A stretch of DNA of 64,000 nt from Lachnoclostridium sp. An76 (lineage in GTDB: Bacteria > Bacillota > Clostridia > Lachnospirales > Lachnospiraceae), in assembly GCF_002161355.1 (NCBI RefSeq), contig NZ_NFHL01000002.1, positions 124,001 to 188,000 on the forward strand, given 5' to 3'. The notes beneath the pieces are model-generated. The model was not told the DNA's origin. It did no database searches and was given only the letters and a program-made list of their open reading frames with translations. Every line of letters begins with the position of its first letter. Positions within the stretch are counted from its first letter, which is position 1. Positions 26,772 through 59,160 of this stretch are shown one piece after another. A program made the translations under genes and the position numbers.

Positions 26772-28175
26772 TTGTTTGCAGAAATCATCAACACGATCAG
26801 CGATCTCCTTTACAGCTACATCCTGATCATCCTTCTTCTGGGCGCGGGCATCTGGTTTTCCATACGCACACGCTTTGTCCAGTTCCGTATGTTTATCGAA
26901 TCACTCCGCGTTGTGGCCCAGCCGGGCAGCGACAAAAACGGACTTTCGTCCTTCCAGGCGCTCATGGTATCCACAGCTTCCAGAGTGGGGACAGGCAATA
27001 TCGCCGGGATCTCGACCGCAATCTGCCTCGGAGGTCCCGGAGCTGTATTCTGGATGTGGCTGACCGCCCTTCTCGGCAGCGCGTCCGCGTTTATCGAGAG
27101 CACGCTTGCCCAGATCTACAAGCACAAAGCAGAGGACGGCAGCTCTTACGGCGGTCCCGCCTACTACATCCAGGCGGCGCTCAAAAAGCACTGGATCGGC
27201 GTACTGTTCGCAGTAACGCTCATCCTGACCTATATGGGCGGATTTAACCTGGTCGCTTCCTTTAATATCGCCGACTCCTTCCGCGCTTACAGCTTCTTTG
27301 ACCCGAAGAACACACCTCTTGCAGTAGGCGTGGTGCTGGCTCTCATTTTCGCCGCAGCGATTTTCGGGGGAAGCAGACAGATATCAAAGATCACGGGCGT
27401 CCTTGTCCCTGTGATGGGGATCTTCTATCTTGCGGCCTCTCTCTTTATCGTTGTTACACACTATCAGGCGATCCCGCAGATGTTTGCGGATATCTTCGGG
27501 AATGCCTTTGACCTGCAGGCGATCTTTGGCGGCTTCGCAGGCTCCTGCGTCATGCACGGCATCAAACGAGGCCTCTTCTCCAACGAGGCCGGCGTCGGAT
27601 CCGCGCCGAATGCGGCTGCCAGCGCGGCTGTCTCCCACCCGGTCAAGCAGGGACTTGTGCAGATGCTCTCTGTATTCATTGACACGATCCTCATCTGCTC
27701 GGCCACTGCGTTCATGCTCCTGTGCTCCGGCGTAGCTCCGGGCGCTGACCTTGCGGGGATGCCCTGGGTGCAGGCCGCCGCTTCCAATTCCCTCGGCGGA
27801 TTCGGCACCATATTCATCACGATCGCACTCTGCCTGTTCGCCTTCACTACCCTGATCGGGAACTTCTACTACGCGGAGATGGGACTGAAGTTCCTCTGCG
27901 GCAGAAAGCCCGGAAAGGCTCTGATCAATGCCTTCCGCGTCATCGCCGCCCTGATCGTGCTGGCCGGCGCAACGATGGAATTCGGCCTTGTATGGAATAT
28001 GGCGGATGTGCTCATGGGACTGATGGCGCTCATCAACCTGCCCGTCATCCTCATCCTGGGCGGCCCGGCGATCCGCGCCATGAAAGATTATATGAAGCAG
28101 AAAAAAGAAGGAAAAGATCCCGTGTTCAGAGCAAGGGATATAGAGCTCAGGGATAAGACAGACTTTTGGAATTGA
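26772..28175 (+). CDS. Alanine/glycine:cation symporter (AGCS family)
   Basis: 467-residue polytopic membrane protein that imports alanine or glycine with Na+ or H+. Family sequence includes SSFQALMVSTASRVGTGNIA and then GISTAICLGGPGAVFWMW, the conserved TM3-4 block, and KRGLFSNEAGVGSAPNAAAS. It begins with TTG at 26772, preceded by AGAGAGGAAA; no ATG is available near. Stand-alone gene, and its stop codon merges with the left end of repeat element 1. Confidence 0.93.
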   Translation: MFAEIINTISDLLYSYILIILLLGAGIWFSIRTRFVQFRMFIESLRVVAQPGSDKNGLSSFQALMVSTASRVGTGNIAGISTAICLGGPGAVFWMWLTALLGSASAFIESTLAQIYKHKAEDGSSYGGPAYYIQAALKKHWIGVLFAVTLILTYMGGFNLVASFNIADSFRAYSFFDPKNTPLAVGVVLALIFAAAIFGGSRQISKITGVLVPVMGIFYLAASLFIVVTHYQAIPQMFADIFGNAFDLQAIFGGFAGSCVMHGIKRGLFSNEAGVGSAPNAAASAAVSHPVKQGLVQMLSVFIDTILICSATAFMLLCSGVAPGADLAGMPWVQAAASNSLGGFGTIFITIALCLFAFTTLIGNFYYAEMGLKFLCGRKPGKALINAFRVIAALIVLAGATMEFGLVWNMADVLMGLMALINLPVILILGGPAIRAMKDYMKQKKEGKDPVFRARDIELRDKTDFWN

Positions 28176-29035
28176 ATCTGGATTTGTGGGGGAGCCTTCC
28201 TTCATATGTACCGTCCGAAAACCGTTGATTTGATCAAGGACGTTTTCGCGGCGGGCGGGGATATGGCTCAGGTTCCGGTTCCGTAATCCGGGAAAGACAT
28301 AAAAAGAATGGGATACGGCTAAGGACAATTTCAAAGCGGAAGATTCGCCTGCGGCTCAGGCATCCGCTTTGAAATTAACGCCGCATCCCATTCTTTTAAG
28401 TCTTTCCATCAGATTACTCCAAGTCACCGTCGCCATATCCCCGTCCGCCGCGAAAGGTGCATCAAAGGGGAACGGTTTTCTGCGTGCATCCGATCGGAAG
28501 GTCCCCGCAGGCAAATGCAGGATTTCGAAAGTTGGGTGAGAGGGGAGCTTCAACGGCGGAACAGGAAGCTTTACCAAACGGAAGGTAACACGGACTTCCG
28601 GAAGAGGATTAGCCGTTCGATTTGGCCCAGCAGGCTGTGCCTCTCTACTTGTGATAAGTTTCTGGTGGATGGGGGAAGGATTATCTTTTGTCGGGGGTCT
28701 TCCGTCTTGAGCGAAATCAGAAAACAGCGAAGCGCCTTTTCGGAACATCTTTCAGCGCGGGGATATGGGTGGTTGAGGCGACTTCGGAATGAGGCCTGGA
28801 AGAACTTAAAATCTGCAAGTACGCGTTAAACAGGGCATCGGAATTGTCTGAGACGAAGTCGAGTTGTCCGATGCCCTGTTTTGTTTTTAGCGTACTTGCA
28901 GATTTTCTAGTTTTTCCTGCCTCATGGAGCGGAGCCGATGCCAGCCATATTCCCGCGCTGAATACGTCTCCGATATCTGCGCTTCACTGTTTTCGGACGT
29001 ACATCCAATCGGCCGGCTCCCCGCAAATACAGATT
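28175..29035. repeat. Palindromic intergenic element, copy 1
   Basis: An 861-bp non-coding element between the convergent symporter and Fe-ADH genes. Its ends are inverted: aatctggatttgtgggggag at 28175-28194, and its near-complement at 29015-29035. Internally the first 350 bp form one giant imperfect hairpin: 28213-28266 pairs with 28430-28484, and the apex hairpin spans 28293-28405 (arms with gaatgggat and aatttcaaagcgga). The first ~430 bp are repeated almost exactly at 58628-59044. A segment of ~320 bp (28605-28923) is absent from copy 2. Short ORFs inside are not conserved as proteins. Confidence 0.85.
28808..28906. repeat. Long two-part hairpin inside element copy 1
   Basis: Outer arms 28808-28824 and 28890-28906 (17 bp perfect), inner arms 28828-28842 and 28867-28881 (15 bp perfect, cagggcatcgga core). 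T-rich on both sides of the inner arm. Present only in copy 1, so probably a secondary insertion or a strong bidirectional terminator. Confidence 0.8.
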
Positions 29036-29037
29036 TC

Positions 29038-30183
29038 CTACCAAAGTTTCTTGTAGATCTGTATCACATCTGCCTTGCTCGGCACTCTGGGGTTTGTCGC
29101 GGTGCACGCGTCTTCCAGCGCTGCGTCCGCCATATGGTCAATGGCCTTGAAATACTCTTCCTCTGTGATCGTTCCCATCTGGGAGATCGACAGCGGGATG
29201 TCCATCTCTTTTAACATGAACTGTACCCAGTTTACGAGTGACCTTACTGTCATGATCTTGTTATAGCTGCTCAGCCCGAGGATCTGCGCCACTGTGGAGT
29301 AACGCTTCACTGCCGGGAGATATTCAGAGCGGCTCTTGCTGTGTTTGTTGATATCACTGTTGAATTCAATGATATGCGGCAGGAGCATCGCGTTCGCGCG
29401 TCCGTGCGGGATGTGGAACGTAGCTCCGAGCTGATGCGCCATGCCGTGGTTCAGTCCGAGTGACGCACAGTTGAATGCAAGTCCTGCCAGGCAGGATGCG
29501 GAATGCATCTTCTGGCGCGCGTGCGTATCATTCCCGTCCAGGTATGCCCTTAAAAGGAATACGCCGCAGATCTCGATCGCCTTCTCTGCGAGCGCGGTCG
29601 AGAAATCATTTCTGTTTGTGCTGACACATGCTTCAAGAGCGTGTGTAAACACATCCATCCCCGTATCTGCCGTGATCGACGGCGGAACGCTCTTTACCAG
29701 CTCCGCGTCCAGGATCGCCTCATCGGGCATCAGATCTTTTGATACAAGGGGATATTTTACCTGTTCTGCCGGGTCAGTAACTACCGCAAAGGAAGTCACC
29801 TCTGAACCCGTCCCGCTTGTCGTGGGGATCGCGATCAGACCTACATCTGCATAGTGGTCTACCCTCAGGGCGAACTCACGGATCGATTTCGATGAATCGA
29901 TGGCTGAGCCGCCGCCCACTGCCACGATGGCATCCGGCCGGTACTCGAGCATCTTTTTGACGCCTTCGCTGATCTTCTCGATCGGCGGATCCGGCACAAC
30001 GTCCTTGAAGATCTCGAACTCCTTGTTTCCTCTCCGAAGAGGCTCTGTCACGAGTTCGATCATCTCACCCTGGGCGATGAACGGGTCTGTCACGACCAGT
30101 ACTTTCTGATAAGGGATCTCCGCCAGACGGTCCAGCGCCTGATCCCCGAAAAATATTTTTGTCTTAATATCAAAGCTCTTCAT
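29038..30183 (-). CDS. Iron-dependent alcohol dehydrogenase (PduQ-like, lactaldehyde/propanol type)
   Basis: 381 residues of the group III Fe-ADH family. NAD-binding AVGGGSAIDSSKSI, IPTTSGTGSEVTSFAVV, and the metal-binding DTGMDVFTHALEAC with GLNHGMAHQLGATFHIPHGR. Reduces a short-chain aldehyde (lactaldehyde to 1,2-propanediol, or propanal to propanol), regenerating NAD+ for the aldehyde dehydrogenase. It has no N-terminal targeting extension, unlike other cargo here. Last gene of the BMC locus, after the DeoR gene; its stop abuts palindromic element 1. Confidence 0.88.
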   Translation of the reverse strand: MKSFDIKTKIFFGDQALDRLAEIPYQKVLVVTDPFIAQGEMIELVTEPLRRGNKEFEIFKDVVPDPPIEKISEGVKKMLEYRPDAIVAVGGGSAIDSSKSIREFALRVDHYADVGLIAIPTTSGTGSEVTSFAVVTDPAEQVKYPLVSKDLMPDEAILDAELVKSVPPSITADTGMDVFTHALEACVSTNRNDFSTALAEKAIEICGVFLLRAYLDGNDTHARQKMHSASCLAGLAFNCASLGLNHGMAHQLGATFHIPHGRANAMLLPHIIEFNSDINKHSKSRSEYLPAVKRYSTVAQILGLSSYNKIMTVRSLVNWVQFMLKEMDIPLSISQMGTITEEEYFKAIDHMADAALEDACTATNPRVPSKADVIQIYKKLW

Positions 30184-31087: not shown

Positions 31088-31636
31088 TTATAAAATTGCA
31101 TCGCGGATCTGGGCATCCGGGTGAGCGATAACGGAAGAATCGAGGAACATTCCTCTGTCCTTCACTGCTTCCTTTGCCCTCTCGATCGCTGCTTCAACAG
31201 CAGCTACTTCTCCTGTCAGGAGCATGTATGATTTTCCGCACATACCTCTTGCGATACGCAGCTCGATCAGGTCTACGATGGCTGTCTTAGCCGCCTCATC
31301 CGCTGCCACGATGATGGATGCCGCATCATATGTCTCAAAGATGCCCAGTGCGGACACATCTTCAATCTTTGCCGCTCCATAGATCGCCGGGAAAATAGAT
31401 TCATGCGGGTTTCCGAGCACAAAACTGTCGATCAGATGGAAGCCGTGCAGCTCTCTGGCATTGTCTACCGCTGCTTTTACGGCACTCAAGTCACCTGTAA
31501 TGATCGCAATATATTTGCCCGGACATACGGTCTGAGCTTCGATTATGCTGACTTCAGAGGTCTTTACCATGGCGTCCGCCGCGGTGATACCTGCTGAAAC
31601 AGTCTTATATTCTACCATTCCAATTGCCTTACTCAT
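31088..31636 (-). CDS. pduT: BMC-T tandem-domain shell protein (PduT-like)
   Basis: 182 residues with two BMC domains (about 3-85 and 95-178). The first has GMVEYKTVSAGITAADAMVK and AQTVCPGKYIAIITGDLSAV. The Cys in QTVCPGKY matches the pore cysteine that holds a [4Fe-4S] cluster in PduT, suggesting electron transfer across the shell with the adjacent PduS-like protein. The ATG at 31636 is preferred over the GTG at 31645 because AAGGA lies 10 nt upstream. Co-transcribed after the RnfC-like gene. Confidence 0.92.
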   Translation of the reverse strand: MSKAIGMVEYKTVSAGITAADAMVKTSEVSIIEAQTVCPGKYIAIITGDLSAVKAAVDNARELHGFHLIDSFVLGNPHESIFPAIYGAAKIEDVSALGIFETYDAASIIVAADEAAKTAIVDLIELRIARGMCGKSYMLLTGEVAAVEAAIERAKEAVKDRGMFLDSSVIAHPDAQIRDAIL

Positions 31637-31652
31637 TGCCTGCACGTCCTTC

Positions 31653-32975
31653 CTAAGTTTCTATGATCACATATTTATCATTTACTTCTGTCACTGTACC
31701 GGTAACTGATGCATGGATCCCCACGCTCAGCCCCTTCGCCGGCTCAGCGATCATCTGTCCCTTTGTCACCTTGTCGCCTTCTTTTACGACAGCTGACGCA
31801 GGCGCTCCGATATGCTGGCTCAGCATGATGCGGACTCTCTTGACCGGCACCTCTGACTCATCGAGAGGAGCCTCTTTGTTGTATTTGGTCAGGTCAAGTC
31901 TTGCCATCAGCCTCTCCATCGGGACTTTCCTGTATTCTCTCTCCGGTCCTACCGGCTTCGCCTCCACCTGCGGCGGACGGATGCCGTTTGCCCTTAAGCC
32001 TGCCTTGTACTCTGCCATAAGGCTTCTGGGTGAAAGGCCCTGGAAACAGGAATACAGTTCACAGACGCCACAGGATGAGCAGAACATCGTATTTACAAAG
32101 ATGTTTGGCTCCTGGATATCCTTGCATGTGGCTGCAAGCATGAACTTATTCGGCTCGATCGGATGCCCGAGCAGATGTCTCGGACAGAGATCTGTACACA
32201 TCGAACACTGACAGCAGCACGCTGCTGCGCGTTTCATGTCGATGGAGTTTTTCTTTAATTTTTTCTGTATGATATAATGGTCCTCCGGCAGTACGAGGAT
32301 CGCGTTCGTTGTCTTAGTGACAGGCTGCGCTCCTGTGCCGATATTTCCCATCATCGGTCCGCCTACAAAGTAGACCGGGTTCGGTGTCGTCACATGGCCT
32401 GCAAGCGCGACCACCTCATCCAGCGGCGTCCCGATCGGCACGCGTACAGTCACCGGATGCTCAACTTCCGCTACGACAGACACCAGCTTGTCTTCCACCG
32501 GTGTCTTCTCGTTCAGTGCCCTGTATACATTGTATACAGTCTCTACATTGAACACCGCGACACCGCTCTCGATCGGGAGCCCGCCCGGGCGGACTACCTT
32601 GCCGGTCACTTCATAGATCAGTACGACTTCATCGCCTGCCGGATACACTTCATCCAGCAGCCCCAGCCTCACTTCCGGATATTTATCGATCACGGCGCTC
32701 ACTGCCTCGATCGTCTTTTTATACGCTTTCTTGATGCCGATGATAACTTCCTTTGCACCGACTGTCTCGCCGATCATATGGAATGTATCAATGATCTCTT
32801 TCGCATATTTTTCAAGCAGCTGTCTGTGCAGTCTTAAGAGCGGCTCGCACTCCGCACAGTTCAGGATGATCGTATCCGCACGCTCATCAAGCTTGGCATA
32901 TGTCGGAAATCCCGCACCACCTGCGCCAACGATGCCGTTCTGCTGCAATATGCTGCTCAATTCTTTCATATCCAT
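31653..32975 (-). CDS. pduS: PduS-like electron-transfer protein (RnfC family)
   Basis: 440 residues from the ATG at 32975 (MDMKELSSILQQ), placed by a GGAG 9 nt upstream. The NuoF/RnfC-type fold is shown by GIVGAGGAGFPTYAKL and LNCAECEPLL; the ferredoxin-like part has two cysteine sets, CCCQCSMCTDLCPRH and CSSCGVCELYSC. A C-terminal lipoyl-like sandwich domain ends the protein (GDKVTKGQMIAEP). In Pdu compartments PduS passes electrons through PduT. Same role is likely here. Confidence 0.92.
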   Translation of the reverse strand: MDMKELSSILQQNGIVGAGGAGFPTYAKLDERADTIILNCAECEPLLRLHRQLLEKYAKEIIDTFHMIGETVGAKEVIIGIKKAYKKTIEAVSAVIDKYPEVRLGLLDEVYPAGDEVVLIYEVTGKVVRPGGLPIESGVAVFNVETVYNVYRALNEKTPVEDKLVSVVAEVEHPVTVRVPIGTPLDEVVALAGHVTTPNPVYFVGGPMMGNIGTGAQPVTKTTNAILVLPEDHYIIQKKLKKNSIDMKRAAACCCQCSMCTDLCPRHLLGHPIEPNKFMLAATCKDIQEPNIFVNTMFCSSCGVCELYSCFQGLSPRSLMAEYKAGLRANGIRPPQVEAKPVGPEREYRKVPMERLMARLDLTKYNKEAPLDESEVPVKRVRIMLSQHIGAPASAVVKEGDKVTKGQMIAEPAKGLSVGIHASVTGTVTEVNDKYVIIET

Positions 32976-32982
32976 AATTTCA

Positions 32983-33249
32983 CTACTCCAGTCCTGATCC
33001 GTCGTCAATAATTCCTACGATCGCCGCATCGACAGGCGCGTCTGGCATCCCGCTGCCGATCCTTGCCGCGCTGCCCTGGGCGACGAGCACATACTCGCCG
33101 ATGCCCGCGCCGATCTTGTCGATGGCGATGAGCTGTTTCGCGCCGGAGTGCATATGCTCCAGAACGTCTACGATCATGAATTTATTGCCGATCAAATTTT
33201 CACATTTGCGTGTTGAAACAACACTTCCAACAACTTTCCCTATCAGCAT
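32983..33249 (-). CDS. BMC-P pentameric vertex protein (EutN/CcmL/PduN)
   Basis: 88 residues: MLIGKVVGSVVSTRKCENLI, then GAGIGEYVLVAQGSAAR and PVDAAIVGIIDD, the standard EutN/CcmL fold. Forms pentamers that cap the vertices of the shell. It is the only BMC-P in the locus. Its start overlaps the pduL stop by 7 bp. Confidence 0.95.
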   Translation of the reverse strand: MLIGKVVGSVVSTRKCENLIGNKFMIVDVLEHMHSGAKQLIAIDKIGAGIGEYVLVAQGSAARIGSGMPDAPVDAAIVGIIDDGSGLE

Positions 33250-33893
33250 GATATTATCCTCACCGTGTCGCCGGTCGCAATCTTTGCAGCGTTCGCCTCA
33301 TCCGTATCGATATGCATTTCAAGGGTAAAGCTGTCGTCCACGCGGATCTTCACGCGGTTGAAGATCGTTCCTCTCTCATTGTCCGCCTTCACGGAGACGA
33401 TATCGCCGTCGTGCACTCCTGCCGCCATGGCATCCTTCGGGGACATATGTATATGGCGCATCGCGATGATGCAGCCCTCATTCAGATAGATCGCGCCCTT
33501 CGGCCCTACGACCGCGATCGGGGCGCTTCCCTCGATCTTTCCGGACTCCCGGATCGGAGCGTTCACTCCCAGGCGGATCGCATCGGTAGCGGAGATCTCA
33601 ACCTGCGTCTGCTTCCTCACAGGTCCGAGCACACGCACATTTTCGATCGCCCTGAGCTTGAGGCCGACGATGGTCACTGTCTCATTGGCCGCGAACTGTC
33701 CGCCCATAAGGCCTTTTTTCCGTGTCAGATGGTATCCTTCACCGAACAGCGCTTCCACATGTTCCTGAGTAAGATGGATATGTCTTGCGGACACTCCGAT
33801 CGGCACCATGTATCCTGCCCCTTCAGAGGATTTCTGCTTTTCAACTGCTTCCAGGACCAGTTTTGTAATTAATGCTACATTACTGTTATCCAT
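33243..33893 (-). CDS. pduL: Phosphate propanoyltransferase (PduL-type)
   Basis: Interconverts acyl-CoA and acyl phosphate and recycles CoA inside the compartment. 216 residues with two PduL beta-barrel domains; zinc-binding motifs SARHIHLTQEHVEALFG and MRHIHMSPKDAMAAG are intact. The N-terminus MDNSNVALITKLVLEAVEKQ is a short amphipathic helix followed by a linker, as in encapsulation peptides of other PduL proteins. Good SD (ggagg) 33904-33908. Preceded by two hairpins in the gap after the BMC-H gene. Confidence 0.95.
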   Translation of the reverse strand: MDNSNVALITKLVLEAVEKQKSSEGAGYMVPIGVSARHIHLTQEHVEALFGEGYHLTRKKGLMGGQFAANETVTIVGLKLRAIENVRVLGPVRKQTQVEISATDAIRLGVNAPIRESGKIEGSAPIAVVGPKGAIYLNEGCIIAMRHIHMSPKDAMAAGVHDGDIVSVKADNERGTIFNRVKIRVDDSFTLEMHIDTDEANAAKIATGDTVRIISC

Positions 33894-33909
33894 ATCTCAA
33901 TTCTCCTCC

Positions 33910-33978
33910 AAAAACGGATCTGCATCATCCGTTTTTCTCATATGCAGGAAACAGCCTGTCTCTGCGGCTGTTTCCTGC
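33910..33978 (-). promoter_or_regulatory. Two hairpins between bmcH and pduL
   Basis: Read leftward: first a 13-bp perfect stem (33978-33966 with 33956-33944, gcaggaaacagcc), then a stem aaaacggat (33935-33927 with 33919-33911) followed by a short T/G tract and the pduL SD. The second looks like a leaky intrinsic terminator. Such elements can lower expression of enzyme genes relative to upstream shell genes; this role is inferred. Confidence 0.6.
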
Positions 33979-34002
33979 GGGGTCTGTCAATAATTACTGT
34001 GA

Positions 34003-34410
34003 TTATTTCAGGACCGGAAGGATCTTCTCCACATCGTTGTGCGGTCTCGGGATCACATGTGTAGCTACGAGCTCGCCAAGTCTTCCTGCTGCCTCTGCTC
34101 CGGACTCAACTGCGGATTTTACAGCTCCTACATCTCCGCGTACCATAACTGTTACGAGTCCGCTTCCGATCTTCTCTGTTCCTACGAGAACTACGTTCGC
34201 AGCCTTTAACATTGTATCTGCAGCCTCGATCGATGCTACCAGACCTCTTGTTTCAACCATTCCTAATGCTTCCTGTGACATTCTTCTCTCCTCCTTCTGA
34301 ATCGTCGGTTGTTCCTGAACCGTTGTTTCTGCTTTCTGCGCCGTCTTTCTCACTCTTCGTACAGTTTTCGCCGGCGCTTTGGCTGTTGTTGTTTTCTTTT
34401 CCTCTGCCAT
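34003..34410 (-). CDS. BMC-H shell protein with N-terminal extension and internal start
   Basis: 135 residues: a 43-residue Lys/Ala/Thr/Arg-rich extension ([20 protein letters not shown]...), then a PduA-type BMC domain ([55 protein letters not shown]). The long start at 34410 has TAGGAGG upstream. A second in-frame ATG at 34281, exactly at the domain start, has its own AAGGAGGAGA with ideal spacing. Both forms may be made. The core is nearly identical to the BMC-H at 34758-35039, so this is a recent duplicate that acquired the extension. Confidence 0.92.
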
Positions 34411-34423
34411 TTCAAACTGCCTC

Positions 34424-34708
34424 CTAACTCACCCTGTTTGCACTGTCATTGACGATCTTGAGTATCTCTTCATGAGGGCTCGGGATCACAACCTTGCAGA
34501 CAGGATCTTTGATTCCGTTCGCTGCGGCAGCTTCAATGGCCTGCTTGACAGCGGATACGTCGCCGCGGATGATGATCGTGACCAGTCGTCCGCCCAGTTT
34601 TTTCTCCCATGTGACAAGCTCGACTTCGGCGGTCTTGCACATGATATCAATGGCAACTACCGCTGCCGTTACACTCGGGATCTCAAAGAATCCATACGCT
34701 TTACCCAT
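34424..34708 (-). CDS. BMC-H shell protein (EutM/PduJ-related, divergent)
   Basis: 94 residues with one BMC domain: [20 protein letters not shown] then [20 protein letters not shown] and [12 protein letters not shown]. The pore loop region differs from the two PduA-like paralogues beside it (K-L-G-G-R instead of K-I-G-S-G), so it should give the shell a pore of different size or charge. Same operon; 13 bp separate it from the downstream extended BMC-H. Confidence 0.93.
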
Positions 34709-34757
34709 GAGACTGCTCCTTTACTGTGATCTGAAGACTTTCCTCATTCACTCCGGC

Positions 34758-35039
34758 TTAGATAGACGGAAGGATCTTCTCTACGTCATTGTGCGGTCTC
34801 GGGATCACGTGTGTTGCTACAAGCTCGCCGAGTCTTCCTGCAGCGTCAGCGCCTGTCTCTACTGCTGCCTTGACAGCTCCTACATCTCCGCGCACCATAA
34901 CTGTTACGAGTCCGCTTCCGATCTTCTCTGTTCCTACCAGTGTTACCTCAGCTGCCTTTGTCATTGCATCTGCAGCCTCGATCGCTGCTGTAAGTCCTCT
35001 TGTTTCAACCATTCCTAATGCCTGCTGTGCCATTGCCAT
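34758..35039 (-). CDS. BMC-H shell protein (PduA-like)
   Basis: 93 residues, canonical hexamer-forming shell protein: [57 protein letters not shown]. The pore motif K-I-G-S-G is that of PduA, whose pore passes 1,2-propanediol-like small polar molecules. Likely the major facet protein. Almost identical in its core to the extended copy at 34003-34410. Confidence 0.95.
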
Positions 35040-35052
35040 TGTTCATTTCCTC

Positions 35053-35406
35053 CTAAATCTCTTCGATATCTTTTTCGTTGATGATATGTGGTTCACCTTT
35101 GTCCAGTCCGGTGATCTTCAGCATTTTTTCCGTATCCTCTGTCGGTCTTGCGATCTCATATTCGTTCACAACACCCGCAAGCTCTTCGGCTCTTGCCTTT
35201 GCCGCCTCAAGCGCCGCCGTGACATCGGATACGCTTCCGCGGAATTTAACCATAACGATCAGTGGTACGGGCAGTTCATCTGCATTCGCCGGTTTGTTTT
35301 TGTCGAACTTTTCGAGCCATACATTGCCTGCCTTGCATCCGGCGTCCGCCGCCGCAAAAGCTGTGGCAAGCCCGAAAACCTCCAACATGCCTACTGCATC
35401 TCCCAT
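35053..35406 (-). CDS. BMC-H shell protein, divergent (PduU/EutS-unlike)
   Basis: 117 residues. The BMC fold is recognisable in GMLEVFGLATAFAAADAGCK, VPLIVMVKFRGSVSDVTAAL and EYEIARPTEDTEKMLKITGL. It has a longer loop (EKFDKNKPANADELPV) before the pore strand and an acidic C-terminal tail ending NEKDIEEI. Pore residues F-R-G-S differ from its neighbours. First shell gene after the Zn-ADH (10-bp gap). Confidence 0.88.
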   Translation of the reverse strand: MGDAVGMLEVFGLATAFAAADAGCKAGNVWLEKFDKNKPANADELPVPLIVMVKFRGSVSDVTAALEAAKARAEELAGVVNEYEIARPTEDTEKMLKITGLDKGEPHIINEKDIEEI

Positions 35407-35416
35407 AATGATTCAC

Positions 35417-36628
35417 CTATTTATTCACGATCGCGATCTTAAGGCCTTTCTGTGCAAGGTTCGTCTGGTGGGCCTCATTGATCTCCTCGAGCGGGAACTT
35501 GTGCGTGATCAGCTCCTTCATCGGAAGGCCGATCGCCTGCGCTCTCTTCAGGAAATCAAATGTAGTCGCGTAATCCCTCAGTGTATATACCCAGGAGCCG
35601 ACCAGTGTGATCTCTTTGGAGCAGAGGTCAAAGTGCGGATTGATCGTGGCGTCTCCGCCGTTGATGAAGAATCCGAGTTCACATAAACCGCCGCCGTTGC
35701 GGATGAACTTGTAGATATTTGAGTGTGCTACCGGTGATCCTGTGCACTGGAACGCAAAATCTGCAAGGTGTCCGCCGAAGGCTTCCTTCACTGCTCCTGA
35801 AAGAGCGTCGATCCCTTTGTACTCCATAAAGTTTACAGACTTGTCAGCACCCATCTTCTTCGCGAAGTCGAGTCTCTGCTGGTTGCCGTCCACTGCAACG
35901 ATGTTCTCGATGCCCATCGTGCGGAGAACTGCGATGCAGATCAGACCGATCGGTCCGCAGCCCTGTACGACTACTCTGCTGTTGAATCTTAAGATTCCTG
36001 TCGTCTTTGCCCTCTCAACTGCATGTACAAGCACTGCACATGGCTCAATGAGGATCCTGGAATCAAGATCCAGGTCGCTTACGTTGAAGATGGAAGATCC
36101 TTCGCGGACCAGGATGTAATCGGAAAACCATCCGTTCAGATGGATATCATCGTCCGGAAGAAGTCCGTATACGTCAGCCCCGCCGATGTTCTTCTTGTTC
36201 AGGTCGAACATCTCGATATCCGGGTCATCCTTAAAGATCATACATGTAACGACTTTGTCGCCGACCTTCAGCGGTTTGCCCGCGCTGTCAGCCTTTACGT
36301 TCTTGCCCATCTTGACGATCTCGCCGGTCCCCTCGTGTCCGAGCGCTACCGGGATCAGTCCGAACGGGTCTCTCTTGAATTCATGGGCATCTGTCCCGCA
36401 GATACCGCAGCCTTCTACTTTTACGAGGATGTCTCCGTCTCCCACTTCCGGGATCGGGAATTCCTTGATGTCATAATGCTCAAGTGATGTCAGCATCGCA
36501 ACGTGTGCTGTCTTCGGGATTGCCTGGCTTGCAGCCGGCTGTGCGGACGGTGAAGGGATCTTCTTGTCCAGCATGCTTTCCAGCACCTGTTTAACGACGG
36601 CTTCCACATTAGCGGAATTCATTTCCAT
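35417..36628 (-). CDS. Zn-dependent medium-chain dehydrogenase with encapsulation peptide
   Basis: 403 residues. The N-terminus MEMNSANVEAVVKQVLESML is an amphipathic helix followed by a Pro/Ala/Ser linker (to about 42), the layout of BMC encapsulation peptides. The rest is an MDR alcohol dehydrogenase: EGCGICGTDAHEFKRD and GHEGTGEIVKMG (catalytic zinc), QGCGPIGLICIAVLRTMG (NAD fold). The four-Cys structural zinc lobe is not present. Probably reduces or oxidises a compartment aldehyde/alcohol such as lactaldehyde. Most BMCs use an Fe-ADH here; this locus has both. Confidence 0.85.
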   Translation of the reverse strand: MEMNSANVEAVVKQVLESMLDKKIPSPSAQPAASQAIPKTAHVAMLTSLEHYDIKEFPIPEVGDGDILVKVEGCGICGTDAHEFKRDPFGLIPVALGHEGTGEIVKMGKNVKADSAGKPLKVGDKVVTCMIFKDDPDIEMFDLNKKNIGGADVYGLLPDDDIHLNGWFSDYILVREGSSIFNVSDLDLDSRILIEPCAVLVHAVERAKTTGILRFNSRVVVQGCGPIGLICIAVLRTMGIENIVAVDGNQQRLDFAKKMGADKSVNFMEYKGIDALSGAVKEAFGGHLADFAFQCTGSPVAHSNIYKFIRNGGGLCELGFFINGGDATINPHFDLCSKEITLVGSWVYTLRDYATTFDFLKRAQAIGLPMKELITHKFPLEEINEAHQTNLAQKGLKIAIVNK

Positions 36629-36935
36629 GTTATCTACCTCCTATTTCTGTTTACGCCGTGCCAGCTCGATTCCGCTCCGCTTCATCTCGCTGTCGGCGTG
36701 CGCCGTATGCTTCCTTGCATTTCGGCGGTCTGCGCCGTGCCAGCTCGATTCCGCTCCGCTTCATCTCGCTGATGGCGTGCGCCATATGCTTCCTTGCATT
36801 TCGGCGGTTTGCGCCATGCACAGCTCGATTCCGCTCCGCTTCATCTCGCTGTCGGCGTGCGCCGTATGCTTCCGTCCCAGAAATGTGTATTGCAGGCCAG
36901 CCTGCATACCCATTTCTGTGCCGTAAGCGCATGGC
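36629..36935. repeat. Three tandem 78-79-bp repeats plus a hairpin inside the BMC operon
   Basis: Between the aldehyde dehydrogenase and Zn-ADH genes. Repeat units start at 36656, 36735 and 36813; each reads gccgtgccagctcgattccg and continues through cttcatctcgctg and gcttccttgcatttcggcgg (the third is cut short near 36875). A hairpin follows at about 36877-36918 (cagaaatgtgtattgcaggc with gcctgcatacccatttctg). The open frame through the repeats is low-complexity and has no SD, so I treat it as non-coding. Confidence 0.85.
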
Positions 36936-38324
36936 TTATCGTATGCACAAACTGTCGGTCATGACGCAGCGTCTTCTTTTTGTGAAGGTGCTTGCGCTTG
37001 TAAGGCCTTCGCCTGTCCTGCTGGCGATCGTGAATGTACAGAAGCCTTCTCCTCCGAATCCGAGCGCCGCGTAGGACGGACCGTTCTTTACGAGGATCGC
37101 TGTGTCGATCGCTTTCGCATACTTTGTGATATTGTCTACATTCTTTGAATGGATATGTGCGGAGTGGCGGTTGCCGTGCTCAAGCCATACGGCCTGTTCC
37201 ACTGCATCGTCAAAGTCCTTTGCCCTCACAACGCCGAGGATCGGCATCATGAGCTCTGTAGCGATCAGCGGGTGCTCCTTCGGACCTTCAAATGTAATAC
37301 ATCTGATATTGTCCGGTACAGTCACGCCGATCATCCCCAGAAGGGTCTTCGCGTCGCGTCCCACACATTTTCTGTTCAGCTTTCCGTCTTTGAGGACGAC
37401 TGCTGTGAGAGCGTCCTGCTCTTCCTTTGACGCAAGGTAGCAGCCCTGCTCTGTGATCATGTAATTCATCAGCTCGTCAACGACGGAGTCCACTGCCACG
37501 ATCTCTTTCTCTGCGATACAGGGAAGGTTGTTGTCAAAAGTACATCCGTTTACGATGTCCTCTGCCGCCTTTCTCAGATCCGCTGTCTCGTCAACCAGCG
37601 CCGGCGGATTTCCCGCGCCTGCCCCGATCCCTCTGCGTCCTGAGGAGAGTACCGCTGTCACGACTCCCGGTCCGCCGGTCGCCGCGATGAGCTGGATCGC
37701 TTTATGTTTCATCATGATATTGCTTGTCTCAAGGGTCGGATGCTCTACCGTGCATGCGATATTGTCCGGACCGCCCGCCTCTACGGATGCCTCGTTTAAG
37801 AGGTTGATCGCATAGATGGAAGTCTTGATCGCTGCCGGATGGGGATTGAACACAACTGTGTTCCCCGCCGCGAACATTCCGATCGTATTGCACAGGACTG
37901 TCTCACTCGGGTTCGTGCACGGCGTGATCGCGCCGATGACTCCGAACGGTCCCATCTCGATGAGGGTAAGTCCTCTGTCCCCTGACCACGCTGTCGTTGT
38001 GATATCCTCTGTTCCCGGAGTCTTCTCAGCGACGAGCTGGTGTTTCAGGATCTTGTGACCGACATTTCCCATGCCTGTCTCCTGTACGCCCATACGCGCC
38101 AGGATCTCTGCGTTCTCCATGATCTTTTTGCGGATATTGGAGATCACTTTTTCTCTGTGGTCCAGAGACATCCTTGCTACGATCTTCTGTGACTTCTTCG
38201 CTGCTTCGATCGCCTCATTCATATCTGAGAACACGCCTCTGTCCCCGGATACATCCGCGGCGATCTGCATCTTTGCCACAACCTCCTGCACAATGTCCTG
38301 AACCATCTGTTCATTTACAGACAC
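36936..38324 (-). CDS. pduP: CoA-acylating aldehyde dehydrogenase with encapsulation peptide (PduP-like)
   Basis: Oxidises an aldehyde to acyl-CoA with NAD+ and CoA. 462 residues. The N-terminus MSVNEQMVQDIVQEVVAKMQ is an amphipathic targeting helix. The dehydrogenase part has GPFGVIGAITPCTNPSETVL, TGGPGVVTAVLSSGRRGIGA and the catalytic Cys in FDNNLPCIAEKE. With an aldolase but no diol dehydratase here, the likely substrate is lactaldehyde (to lactyl-CoA) rather than propanal. Its start overlaps the DUF336 gene stop by 10 bp. Confidence 0.93.
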   Translation of the reverse strand: MSVNEQMVQDIVQEVVAKMQIAADVSGDRGVFSDMNEAIEAAKKSQKIVARMSLDHREKVISNIRKKIMENAEILARMGVQETGMGNVGHKILKHQLVAEKTPGTEDITTTAWSGDRGLTLIEMGPFGVIGAITPCTNPSETVLCNTIGMFAAGNTVVFNPHPAAIKTSIYAINLLNEASVEAGGPDNIACTVEHPTLETSNIMMKHKAIQLIAATGGPGVVTAVLSSGRRGIGAGAGNPPALVDETADLRKAAEDIVNGCTFDNNLPCIAEKEIVAVDSVVDELMNYMITEQGCYLASKEEQDALTAVVLKDGKLNRKCVGRDAKTLLGMIGVTVPDNIRCITFEGPKEHPLIATELMMPILGVVRAKDFDDAVEQAVWLEHGNRHSAHIHSKNVDNITKYAKAIDTAILVKNGPSYAALGFGGEGFCTFTIASRTGEGLTSASTFTKRRRCVMTDSLCIR

Positions 38325-38836
38325 TCTAATACCTCCTTAAAGACTGACTTCCCGTAAGCCGCGATCGCGGTATCTTCCGCCGCTGTTCCGCCGCTCACTC
38401 CGAGTGCCCCGACAATCTGTCCGTCAGCTTCCAGTACTTCGCCGCCGCCGAAGATCACGATCTTTCCGTTGTTCGTGAACTGGATCCCGTAGAGGTCCTG
38501 TCCCGGCTGGCTTAACTCTGCAAGCTGCGCAGTGGACATTTTAAGGCTCGCGGAAGTATAGGTCTTGTTGATTGCAATGTCAAAGCTTGCTATGTACGCA
38601 TCGTCCATGCACTGGACAGATACGGGCCTGCCGGCCTTGTCCGAGACAGCAGCGACAATGTTGACGCCCATCTCGGCTGCCTTTGCCTTTACTCTTTCGA
38701 TCAGGGCATTGGCAAGTGCCAGAGTCATCGCATGCTTTTTACATTTACAGACATGCTTTTTCTCCTGTGCGGGAGCTGTATCTTTCATCTGGTCAAGCAC
38801 AGCTCTCACCGCATTGGTGATGTCCTGTTCGTTCAT
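38315..38836 (-). CDS. DUF336 (GlcG/HbpS/PduO C-terminal-like) protein with encapsulation peptide
   Basis: 173 residues. N-terminal helix MNEQDITNAVRAVLDQMKDT is encapsulation-peptide-like, then a Cys/Lys patch (KKHVCKCKKH), then the DUF336 fold: LANALIERVKAKAAEMGVNI, AGRPVSVQCMDDAYIASFDI and GVSGGTAAEDTAIAAYG. Related domains bind heme or occur fused to PduO; no adenosyltransferase domain is present here. The role in BMCs is unsettled. Encoded between aldolase and aldehyde dehydrogenase, so clearly cargo. Confidence 0.87.
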   Translation of the reverse strand: MNEQDITNAVRAVLDQMKDTAPAQEKKHVCKCKKHAMTLALANALIERVKAKAAEMGVNIVAAVSDKAGRPVSVQCMDDAYIASFDIAINKTYTSASLKMSTAQLAELSQPGQDLYGIQFTNNGKIVIFGGGEVLEADGQIVGALGVSGGTAAEDTAIAAYGKSVFKEVLECL

Positions 38837-38859
38837 AGCTCTGCCTCACTTTGTTGTTC

Positions 38860-39672
38860 TTACATTCCCAGCTGTTCCATAACTTTCTTTGTGATGGATG
38901 CGATCAGGTCAGCGTCTGTCCCTTCTGCTGCCGGTGCCGCCTTAGCCGCGCAGCTTCCGCCGCATGTATGGCAGCTCGGCTTTCCTGCTTTTGCGTTCGG
39001 GCAAAGATTAGCCGGATGTTTTCCCGGAAGTCCCATTTTCCTTCTTACCTCGTACAGCGTCTCAACCTGCTCCGGGCTGAACTCCTGCGGTCCGCCTACC
39101 TGCATCGTCTGCCATAACAGCTGTGCGTAGAACTCTACGGACTCCATCTTCATATATGCAGCGAGAAGGCTGTCAGAATATGTCAGCGCGCCGTGGTTCT
39201 CAAGCAGAACTGCATCGAAGTGCTCGAGGTACGGCTCAACTGCATCCGGGATTTCCATTGTCCCTGGTGTTCCGTAAGGAGTGATCGGCACGCATCCGAG
39301 AGCGATAACTGCTTCCGGCATGATCGGCTGTGTCAGCGGGATGCCCGCGATAGCAAATGTTGTAGCATACAGCGGATGAGCATGTACAACGGATTTCACA
39401 TCCGGTCTCTTCTGATATACACGCATGTGCATCTTGATCTCTGAAGAAGGTCTGAAGCCTTTGTTTGCCTGGAGCACATTTCCGTTCTCATCAACCTTGC
39501 AGATGTACTCCGGTGTCATAAATCCTTTGCTGACTCCTGTCGGCGTGCATAAAAACTCATGGTCGTTAAGCTTTACGGAAAAGTTACCGTCATTTGCAGC
39601 AACCATTCCGCGGTTGTATACGCGCCTGCCGATCTCACACATTTCTTTTTTGATTTCGTATTCGTTTTGCAT
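38860..39672 (-). CDS. Class II aldolase (fuculose/rhamnulose-1-phosphate type) with C-terminal encapsulation peptide
   Basis: Cleaves a deoxyhexulose 1-phosphate to DHAP and lactaldehyde. 270 residues from the ATG at 39672 (MQNEYEIKKEMCEIGRRVYN) behind AAGGAGGAG; the frame open to 39789 contains the promoter. Catalytic parts: ANDGNFSVKL, the zinc histidines in SVVHAHPLYATTFA and LENHGALTYSDSLL. After residue ~212 comes a Cys-rich linker (CPNAKAGKPSCHTCGGSC) and a C-terminal amphipathic helix (TDADLIASITKKVMEQLGM). First gene of the BMC operon. Confidence 0.92.
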   Translation of the reverse strand: MQNEYEIKKEMCEIGRRVYNRGMVAANDGNFSVKLNDHEFLCTPTGVSKGFMTPEYICKVDENGNVLQANKGFRPSSEIKMHMRVYQKRPDVKSVVHAHPLYATTFAIAGIPLTQPIMPEAVIALGCVPITPYGTPGTMEIPDAVEPYLEHFDAVLLENHGALTYSDSLLAAYMKMESVEFYAQLLWQTMQVGGPQEFSPEQVETLYEVRRKMGLPGKHPANLCPNAKAGKPSCHTCGGSCAAKAAPAAEGTDADLIASITKKVMEQLGM

Positions 39673-39693
39673 CTTTTCTCCTCCTTGGATTCT

Positions 39694-39712
39694 ACAAAAC
39701 ATTTTGTTTTGT
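39694..39712. promoter_or_regulatory. Palindromic operator in the BMC operon leader
   Basis: Perfect inverted repeat acaaaaca-ttt-tgttttgt between the promoter and the aldolase SD. Its position just after the start of transcription suits repression, possibly by the DeoR protein at 30195-30965. Confidence 0.6.
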
Positions 39713-39727
39713 GTTGTTTCTGCTAGA

Positions 39728-39756
39728 ATATTACCACACAAACCCACAATAGTCAA
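39728..39756 (-). promoter_or_regulatory. Promoter of the BMC operon
   Basis: Minus strand: -35 TTGACT (39756-39751), 17-bp spacer, -10 TAATAT (39733-39728). Nearly consensus, so repression or catabolite control is needed. An ACACAAACC(C/A)ACA-type segment occurs here (39735-39747) and again at 39957-39969 in the divergent region. Confidence 0.75.
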
Positions 39757-39789
39757 CTGGTTTTGATGTTGGTTTTTAGTGAGATTCAT

Positions 39790-40115
39790 CGTTAAGCTAC
39801 TGGTTTTGTGCCGTCATATCCTTCCCGTACGGACCCGGGGCAATGCCTCCCTTCACATCCGCTCCCGCCCATCGGAACTGCTTCTTTTATTATATCACGC
39901 CGGCCCTGTTTCGCATAGAAAAAAATGACCTTTTTGCCGAAAAACAGGGGTTTCCCACACAAACCAACATGTTTTCTGTTGTTTTTTATTTGATTTTTAT
40001 GTTTCTGCATTGACATTATATAGGAAATGTCCCATACTAAAAACAGTGCAGGAACTCTGCATGCATTTTACCGTTCTCATGCAAAGAGAGCGCCAGGAAA
40101 GCGAGGCTTTGTTTT
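39790..40115. promoter_or_regulatory. Divergent region between the BMC operon and the PHP gene
   Basis: AT-rich. A plus-strand candidate promoter is TTGACA at 40010-40015 with CATACT 17 bp later. A CAACA-tgttttc-TGTTG inverted repeat lies near 39965-39982. The minus-strand frame here (to 40016) repeats part of the aldolase upstream frame, showing a partial duplication of the control region. No gene seen. Confidence 0.55.
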
Positions 40116-50851: not shown

Positions 50852-50936
50852 AAAAGGGACACCCTGAAACCGGATTGGGGACGTAGTAAAATTCGATTTT
50901 ACTACGTCCCCAATCCGGTTTCAGGGTGTCCCTTTT
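50852..50936. terminator. Exceptionally long perfect hairpin
   Basis: 41-bp perfect arms (50852-50892 and 50896-50936) with a 3-nt loop; each arm begins/ends with aaaagggacaccctgaaacc. It ends 50936, where the downstream isomerase gene's stop lies, and follows the promoter region of the PL11 gene (50749-50851). It probably terminates the isomerase gene transcript. Confidence 0.85.
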
Positions 50937-57606: not shown

Positions 57607-58629
57607 ATGAACAAATCTTTTGACCTCCTTTCACTCGGAGAAGTCCTTCTCCGCCTTTCCCCGCCCAGCAATGAACGCCTCGTACGCGGCGAGACTCTCC
57701 AGAAGCAGGTGGGCGGCGCAGAGCTCAACGTCGTTTCCGGCGTCTCTCTCCTCGGGCTCAGGACCGGGATCATCTCCAAACTCCCCGCAAACGACATCGG
57801 GACTTATGCCAAAAACCGCATCCGTTTCTGCGGGGTCAGCGACGATCATCTCGTGTATGACAACTCTCCCGAGGCAAGGCTTGGGATCTATTACTATGAA
57901 AATGGAGCTTATCCGAGAAAACCCGGCGTAGTCTACGACAGGCGCCACTCCACGATCAACACCATATCCGTGGATGATTTCGATGAAACACTCTTCTCTT
58001 CCACACGCTGCTTCCACACGAGCGGGATCACTCTCGCCCTGAGTGAACAGTGCCGCAGCACTGCGATGGAAATGATCCGCCGCTTCAAAGAGGCAGGCGC
58101 GCTCATCTCCTTTGACGTAAACTTCCGCGGAAATCTGTGGACAGGCGATGAGGCAAGGGAATGCATCGAGCAGATCCTCCCGTATGTGGACATTTTCTTC
58201 TGCTCCGAGGAGACGGCAAGGCTTACCTTCCTCAAGACAGGGGACGCAAAAGAGATCATGAAAGGCTTCACCAGGGACTATCCGATCTCTATCGTCGCCT
58301 CCACCCAGCGCGTCGTCCACAGCCCGAAAGTACACACCTTCGGCTCCATCATCTATGACGCGCGCAGCGATAAATACTACGAGGAAGAGCCATACCACAA
58401 CATCGAAGTCGTGGACCGTATCGGAAGCGGGGACGCCTATGTGTCCGGCGTCCTGTACGGGCTGCTCTCAGAGCCTGACAACTGCCAGCGGGCGCTGGAG
58501 ATCGGGAACGCGACAAGCGCGGTCAAGAATACCATACCAGGTGACCTGCCGTCGTCTGACCTTAAAGAGATCGAGAATGTCATCCGGGGGCATAAGGCAG
58601 TGGGACCGCAGCTTGAAATGAACAGGTAA
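57607..58629 (+). CDS. Second PfkB-family sugar kinase (KDG kinase-like)
   Basis: 340 residues, related to kdgK but clearly divergent: VGGAELNVVSGVSLLGLRTG, SFDVNFRGNLWTGDE, catalytic DRIGSGDAYVSGVLYGLL. Substrate may be KDG, 2-dehydro-3-deoxygalactonate or a similar acid. SD aggagg at 57593-57598. Its TAA stop overlaps the left end of element copy 2. Confidence 0.85.
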   Translation: MNKSFDLLSLGEVLLRLSPPSNERLVRGETLQKQVGGAELNVVSGVSLLGLRTGIISKLPANDIGTYAKNRIRFCGVSDDHLVYDNSPEARLGIYYYENGAYPRKPGVVYDRRHSTINTISVDDFDETLFSSTRCFHTSGITLALSEQCRSTAMEMIRRFKEAGALISFDVNFRGNLWTGDEARECIEQILPYVDIFFCSEETARLTFLKTGDAKEIMKGFTRDYPISIVASTQRVVHSPKVHTFGSIIYDARSDKYYEEEPYHNIEVVDRIGSGDAYVSGVLYGLLSEPDNCQRALEIGNATSAVKNTIPGDLPSSDLKEIENVIRGHKAVGPQLEMNR

Positions 58630-59160
58630 TCTGTATTTGTGGGGGAGCCTTCCTTGTGAATATAACGTCCGAAAACCGTTGGTTTGATGCAAACCGTTTT
58701 CGCGGCGGGCGGGGATATGGCTCTGGTTCCGGTTCCGTAATCCGGGAAAGACGTAAAAAGAATGGGATACGGCTAAGGACAATTTCAAAGCGGAAGATTC
58801 GCCTGCGGCTCAGGCATCCGCTTTGAAATTAACGCCGCATCCCATTCTTTTAAGTCTTTCCATCGGATTACTCCAAGTCACCGTTGCCATATCCCCGCCC
58901 GCCGCGAAAGGTGCATCAAAGGGGAACGGTTTTCTGCGTGCATCCGATCGGAAGGTCCCCGCAGACAAATGCAGGATTTCGAAAGTTGGGTGAGAGGGGA
59001 GCTTCGATGGCGGAACAGGAAGCTTTACCAAACGGAAGGTGACGCGGAGCCCCGGAGCCGAAGCCACCCACACACCCGTGCTGAATACGTCTTCGACACA
59101 TCCGCTTCGGTGTTTTCGGATGTTTAGTCAACACTCAGGCTCCCCCCCGCAAATACAACT
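58628..59160. repeat. Palindromic intergenic element, copy 2
   Basis: 533 bp between convergent PfkB and GH28 genes. Left end aatctgtatttgtgggggag (58628-58647), right end complementary at 59138-59160. The first ~415 bp match 28175-28605 with few changes; the central fold (58747-58859) is essentially identical. The right end overlaps the last 12 codons of the GH28 gene, so its C-terminus GGSLSVD is encoded in element DNA. It lacks the ~320-bp insert found in copy 1. Confidence 0.85.

Follow-up and report, generated by a model that had tools for sequence, protein, structure and literature searches.

The palindrome at positions 28175–29035 of the window (the whole stretch of DNA analysed, 64 000 nucleotides) belongs to a large dispersed family of repeats and not to a pair. 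The genome that carries it (the own genome, G000) is that of a Mediterraneibacter, with 3.43 Mb in 26 contigs. The repeat is probably, though far from certainly, a bidirectional 3′-end module that is shared by facing genes and is kept and spread as DNA. Copy 1 consists of two hairpin units, A and B, each with its own apex, and the cores of the two units lie back to back. The features of the two copies in the window and of the genes that flank them are as follows.

26772–28175, + strand: gene of the Na:alanine symporter family, flank of copy 1, with its TGA stop at the element edge
28175–29035, no strand assigned: copy 1, the whole 861-bp element, located between convergent genes and delimited by inverted ends and stop-codon junctions
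28175–28196, + strand: left terminal inverted repeat of copy 1, the first A of which is the last base of the symporter TGA stop
28175–28526, + strand: unit A of copy 1, an imperfect giant hairpin of ∼350 bp that also occurs without unit B
28284–28421, − strand: core hairpin of unit A (79 bits with covariance model R1)
28687–29036, + strand: unit B of copy 1, an imperfect giant hairpin of ∼350 bp that also occurs without unit A (for example at locus L035)
28785–28925, + strand: core hairpin of unit B, with the order stem1-GCGTT-stem2-TGTCTGAG(..)GAGTT-stem2′-TTTTTAGC-stem1′
29015–29035, − strand: right terminal inverted repeat of copy 1; the TAG stop of the Fe-ADH gene is 2 nt away
29038–30183, − strand: iron-containing alcohol dehydrogenase (Fe-ADH) gene, flank of copy 1, with its stop 2 nt beyond the element
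57607–58629, + strand: pfkB-family kinase gene, flank of copy 2, with a TAA common to the gene and the element end
58628–59160 (right end approximate), no strand assigned: copy 2, 533 bp, with unit A and a short right end and no unit B
58738–58875, − strand: core hairpin of copy 2 (77.8 bits with R1)
59124–61472, − strand: GH28/GDSL protein gene, flank of copy 2, with a reading frame that ends ∼35 nt inside the element

The inverted ends of copy 1 (AATCTGGATTTGTGGGGGAGCC and, as the reverse complement, AATCTGTATTTGCGGGGAGCC) are located at 28175 and 29035, in agreement with the preliminary description, and the reading-frame coordinates confirm that each copy starts within the stop codon of a gene on the plus strand, with a gene on the minus strand facing it. 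Segment 28170–29045 (876 nt) folds to −423.7 kcal/mol, compared with a mean of −296.4 (s.d. 7.7) for 20 shuffles (z = −16.5), as expected of the structured element that had been proposed. The ∼350-bp imperfect hairpin with a conserved apex that had been reported corresponds to unit A, but the whole element contains a second such unit, B. Similarly, the term ‘near-identical’ is true only of the first half of the two copies, because copy 2 has unit A but not unit B: query positions 1–428 are matched at 94% and the right end (∼105 bp) at 76%. The elements are apparently non-coding; the open reading frames of at least 100 residues inside copy 1 are one of 130 residues (28356–28748, − strand), one of 104 residues (28515–28829, + strand) and frames shared with the flanking genes. 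About eight convergent junctions are present in the window as judged from mechanically called reading frames, two of which carry an element. Elsewhere in the window, region 31088–40016 on the minus strand contains a run of many short reading frames with aldehyde and zinc-type alcohol dehydrogenases and could be a microcompartment-type operon.

A 17-nt end motif gave 121 matches in the own genome with up to three mismatches, compared with none for a reversed-motif control, and the 861-bp query gave at least 125 matching pieces (40 of 81 candidates scored), which rules out a one-off duplication. At least 60 element loci were studied (from the first 100 of the 121 end-motif places), 51 of them with both ends in view; their sizes range from 41 to 961 bp and reach at least 339 bp in 43 of the 51 two-ended copies. 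The exact 20-nt end pattern was found in 29 stretches of a collection of species genomes, in which the own genome is possibly absent, and all of these are from Mediterraneibacter. With up to two mismatches, the 17-nt motif is present in 25 of 58 genomes of the genus (the own genome included) and absent from the other 33; few genomes have a high copy number (98 matches in G000, 60 in G064, 93 in G071 and 53 in G014). Both further copies, in the own genome and in congeners, and covariation (below) were therefore found, and the suspicion of a dispersed repeat was well founded. Six contig ends of the own assembly (C3 start, C5 end, C6 end, C23 start, C24 start and C25 end) fall in an element end or at most ∼390 bp from one, and in M. 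tabaqchaliae, too, many of the matches are near contig ends, so that the palindromes probably break assemblies.

The elements are located mainly at the 3′ boundary common to two convergent genes, and their ends favour stop codons. The stop of an inward-pointing reading frame (at least 80 codons, called mechanically and not curated) lies within 0–2 nt of 66 of 111 ends, whereas shifting the 3-nt window by 3–60 nt either way (20 shifts) gave 0–13 of 111. Stops near the edge (no more than 12 nt outside the element or 3 nt within it) occur at 81 ends (60 TAA, 14 TGA and 7 TAG), and at 12 further ends the reading frame continues 4–60 nt into the element. A near stop is found at both ends of 28 of the 51 two-ended elements, at one end of 21 and at neither end of two. 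The 0–2 nt precision is in part built in by the edge sequence, because the edge, AA(A)TCTG, together with a preceding T creates an in-frame TAA in some frames; a T at position −4 is found at 47 of the 81 stop-side ends and 11 of the 30 other ends. Truncation of genes by the element was ruled out at the junctions viewed, where the proteins of relatives end at or a few nucleotides from the same stop.

The best-conserved part of the element is a core hairpin of ∼140 nt at the apex and not the arms. The alignment of unit A (33 rows) shows two-sided changes in 25 of 111 predicted pairs, mostly owing to the blockwise exchange of two apex types, and that of unit B (29 rows) shows them in 30 of 90. 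An alignment of the B apex (A3, 19 rows, including about ten other genomes of the genus) contains two-sided changes in 32 of 44 pairs, with 95.3% of cells paired compared with 38.9–50.8% when the partners are slid; covariance model R1 was built from it. Alignment A5, which consists of 44 cores from 39 of 59 sources fitted to R1 at a cut-off of 1e-9 (leaving out the weaker reverse-strand matches and L206), shows two-sided changes in 43 of 44 pairs, 95.9% of cells paired compared with 37–52% slid, and a score of 0.881 compared with 0.109–0.194 with the partners slid. The covariance check of the apex proposed in the preliminary description thus returned strong covariation. The 1867 cells comprise 1739 Watson–Crick pairs, 51 G-U, 35 A-C and 42 others. 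That G-U and A-C are both rare points to a hairpin that is needed on both strands or is maintained as DNA. Most A5 rows retain GCGTT, TGTCTGAG..GAGTT and TTTTAGC, the last being a T-rich stretch after the inner stem (stem2) of the core; this T-tract is weak in some apex variants (TTTAAG). R1 also recognizes the unit A apex, on the opposite strand. In the own genome 22 loci combine an A-type core (70–80 bits) with a B-type core (>110 bits); in every one of them the two are back to back on opposite strands, their 3′ sides pointing outward.

The core extends beyond the genus. A search with R1 found it in at least 21 of 397 Lachnospiraceae genomes (drawn evenly, with strict filters and up to eight candidates scored per genome; the match in G355 is partial), 19 of which are outside the genus and represent 17 genera, and a family confined to the genus is thereby ruled out for the core. 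At 18 loci from other genera, palindromes of 176–336 bp enclose the core, and their arms look unrelated by eye. A reading-frame stop lies within 60 nt of the palindrome edge in 13 of these 18 loci (a raw count, uncorrected for chance), and the elements of other genera are positioned less exactly relative to stops than those of the own genome. A plain DNA search of 16 genomes from other families of the same order found no element. Rfam gave no family at gathering score in the whole window and, apart from one tRNA, none at the 18 core loci of other genera; below threshold, two miRNA models reached E ≤ 1. Among the papers listed by a literature search, none deals with this palindrome in its title or displayed abstract, which is not proof of its absence from print.

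We also searched viral and plasmid sequences. The 861-bp element found no similar DNA among plasmids and reference phages, locus L191 had no match among plasmids and the 20-nt end pattern had none in IMG/VR. The tip TGTYTGAGCGNAGCGAGTT was found in 87 IMG/VR stretches; in many of the 80 that were read, the sequence around it is unrelated or repeated. Six IMG/VR stretches (L294 by pattern alone) have the complete order of flanks, GCGTT..tip..TTTAGC, with any six bases allowed at the tip centre, compared with none for the swapped order. The R1 matches to the tip stretches are weak, with only eight reaching E ≤ 1, and two other tip patterns gave no matches in the viral scan. Three look-alike stretches found nothing among plasmids and phages except for an unannotated phage record that matches half of L229, and 11 IMG/VR loci had no match in Rfam. 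Six IMG/VR loci (L207, L208, L211, L224, L231 and L279) show the tip motif in a different arrangement, TTTTTAG..stem..tip..stem..CGT(T/C)AA, together with a tail of type TTGGTTCTTT that recurs.

Comparison of the same junctions in relatives shows that the hairpin at a gene end can differ in kind. At the L053 junction, for which 20 stretches from congeners were read (L121–L140), the C-terminal residue of the upstream protein is almost unchanged in position in most of the 20. Ordinary-looking terminator hairpins follow the stop by eye in L121, L123 and L125, which are from congeners with 0–2 end-motif matches; L126, L138 and L139 have core-bearing palindromes instead (53–74 bits with R1), and G052 has a different palindrome, L107, without a core match. 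At the same junction, L129 (G059:C3:2162800-2165500) carries an insertion of ∼2.4 kb with regulator-like and transposase-like frames by eye. At the L036 junction the hairpins of G045 and G002 look ordinary, and G010 and G050 have only a remnant that resembles one element end. Between the own genome and its close relative G064, one and the same junction may have a different interior (54 versus 359 bp, 105 versus 346 bp, 348 versus 741 bp and 532 versus 347 bp).

Gene partners differ at a few junctions. Seven of the 31 G064 loci are cut by contig ends, leaving 24 that are two-sided. Of these, 15 keep the gene pair of the own genome, so that recent movement has been modest; one (L170, counted as unchanged) joins two contig ends of the own genome; and eight have changed or lost one recognized neighbour, comprising two swaps that join gene ends from different own-genome elements and six loci with only one recognized flank. 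One swap pairs L004_R with L058_L and the other L058_R with L031_L; in the own genome, by contrast, L058_L and L058_R are joined by 41 bp; one swap is unlikely to be a repeat misassembly, because the element is ∼118 bp in length and its own-genome partner 41 bp. In addition, L034_R is paired in G010 with a gene 78% identical to L062_R, and L068_L in G065 with L006_R over a short stretch that holds an end-like remnant of ∼12 nt. These raw figures are no more than suggestive of an excess of breakpoints at the elements.

The family resembles several known systems in part. MITEs, such as Correia/NEMIS and ERIC, are non-coding and foldable and have terminal inverted repeats. The elements appear to share these general properties, but their interior varies (41–961 bp) and their centre is the best-conserved part. 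In the 51 two-ended copies target-site duplications of 2–9 nt, with four choices of boundary, were not significantly above shuffled pairs (lowest p 0.083). Y1_Tnp, the only transposase family sought in the own genome, is present at four loci, none with the ends of the element. Because the flanks match no significantly better than shuffled pairs and the four Y1_Tnp loci lack these ends, the MITE-like nature that had been suggested is not supported in the sense of a classical MITE. A TA duplication of the IS630 type, suggested by the frequent TA|AATCTG, was ruled out by the TGA and TAG junctions and by flank matches that do not significantly exceed chance. REP/BIME sequences with their RAYT are likewise extragenic, palindromic, dispersed and near gene 3′ ends, and the same genome has RAYT-like Y1 transposase genes at L163 (G000:C20:336956) and L164 (G000:C25:73113), the open frames of which span 289 and 284 codons. 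However, each of these adjoins small palindromes of its own that do not match the elements, which rules out a RAYT-driven REP, and the elements are mostly ten or more times longer (41–961 bp, compared with the 20–40 nt given for REP palindromes in the abstract of PMC3733652). A near-perfect palindrome at 50857–50934 of the window contains GGGGACGTAGTAAAAT, a word also found in the palindromes beside L164, and is apparently a GTAG-type REP of a separate repeat family. The elements share with bidirectional intrinsic terminators their position, the hairpin and the T-rich stretch after the inner stem, and ordinary hairpins occupy the same junction elsewhere; they differ in being palindromes of ∼340–960 bp with a conserved core that form a dispersed family. 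The attC sites of integrons, like the elements, closely follow stop codons and are palindromes of great and variable length in which features of the fold are conserved; their core sites R″/R′ read RYYYAAC..GTTRRRY. By eye, however, A5 shows no inverse core sites in attC order, having 5′ GCGTT and 3′ TTTTAGC instead, and the elements lie between convergent genes and not in cassette arrays.

The repeat may instead be a selfish hairpin element, moved in trans by a transposase or recombinase and without a host role, a reading that we regard as possible but on the unlikely side. Such an element would be tolerated between convergent genes because nothing is harmed there. The dispersed copies, their species-specific sequence and the very unequal copy numbers (98, 60, 93 and 53; none in 33 of 58 genomes) are consistent with this, as is the same arrangement of the tip motif on IMG/VR contigs (six stretches versus none with swapped flanks). 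However, significant target-site duplication is lacking in the 51 copies, both RAYT-like genes carry other palindromes, 15 of the 24 two-sided G064 loci share their gene pair with the own genome, and the position at stops does not resemble that of a random intergenic insertion. A more elaborate and rather doubtful proposal is an uncatalogued class of mobile DNA hairpins in Lachnospiraceae, in which an enzyme would recognize the tip (GCGTT..TGTYTGAGCGNAGCGAGTT..TTTAGC), integration or maintenance would be directed to the stops of facing genes, the elements would act as interchangeable joints for the re-pairing of gene ends and a look-alike tip would occur in contigs of other bacteria.

It is quite improbable that the palindromic DNA is the gene of a structured non-coding RNA, either trans-acting or a regulator in the mRNA 3′-UTR. 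The covarying stems and the conserved unpaired GCGTT, TGTCTGAG..GAGTT and TTTTAGC, which reach beyond the genus (19 of 397 genomes), would fit such an RNA. Neither strand is clearly favoured as a folding RNA, though, because G-U (51 of 1867 cells) is not much commoner than A-C (35); Rfam has no match at gathering score, and a simple scan of 28100–29100, which is a weak test (shuffles average 0.9), found no promoter-like site. Still less credible, and very improbable indeed, is that the palindromes mainly cause recombination that re-pairs gene ends. The partner swaps in G064 (L004, L058 and L031), G010 and G065 agree with this, but clear swaps number two, with six more loci having one unrecognized flank, in 24 two-sided G064 loci; the colinearity breaks elsewhere in the window (near 10.0/12.2, 26.5, 47.2/54.8 and 57.5 kb) do not fall at an element; and for the longer copies an error of the draft assembly is possible. 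Re-pairing appears to be a consequence and not a purpose, since any dispersed repeat recombines.

As a shared 3′-end module, the repeat would let transcripts from both sides fold the same hairpins, forming a bidirectional terminator or a 3′-end barrier. We infer termination from where the element lies and from the T-rich sequence that follows its inner stem; a simple scan of 28100–29100 for terminator-like sites found none, its loop limit of 3–8 being unable to see this hairpin. A copy with a single core presents it in sense to just one of the facing genes. The arms appear to be kept complementary as DNA, because the changes are almost all two-sided and Watson–Crick and G-U is little commoner than A-C; conversion between the arms or quasi-palindrome correction may hold them so. 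We also infer mobility: copies may spread as DNA by machinery acting in trans, be reshuffled by recombination and homogenized within a genome, and their centres may erode to leave mini-hairpins of 41–105 bp.

Bacteria are not expected to maintain long palindromes stably. Dozens persist here although every one of the 58 genomes of the genus has a homologue of SbcD, above the curated cut-off in 56 of them, which rules out the loss of SbcCD, as far as SbcD is concerned, as the reason for their persistence. Beyond the preliminary description, the core is found in other genera of the family, the ends prefer stop codons, and the interiors and sometimes the gene partners differ between species. These palindromes mark gene ends almost to the nucleotide, and 19 genomes from outside the genus share their core, although almost all of the stem sequence has been replaced. 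The elements are thus a model for the upkeep of giant palindromes, for the exchange of gene 3′ boundaries and for a possible enzyme that reads the tip.
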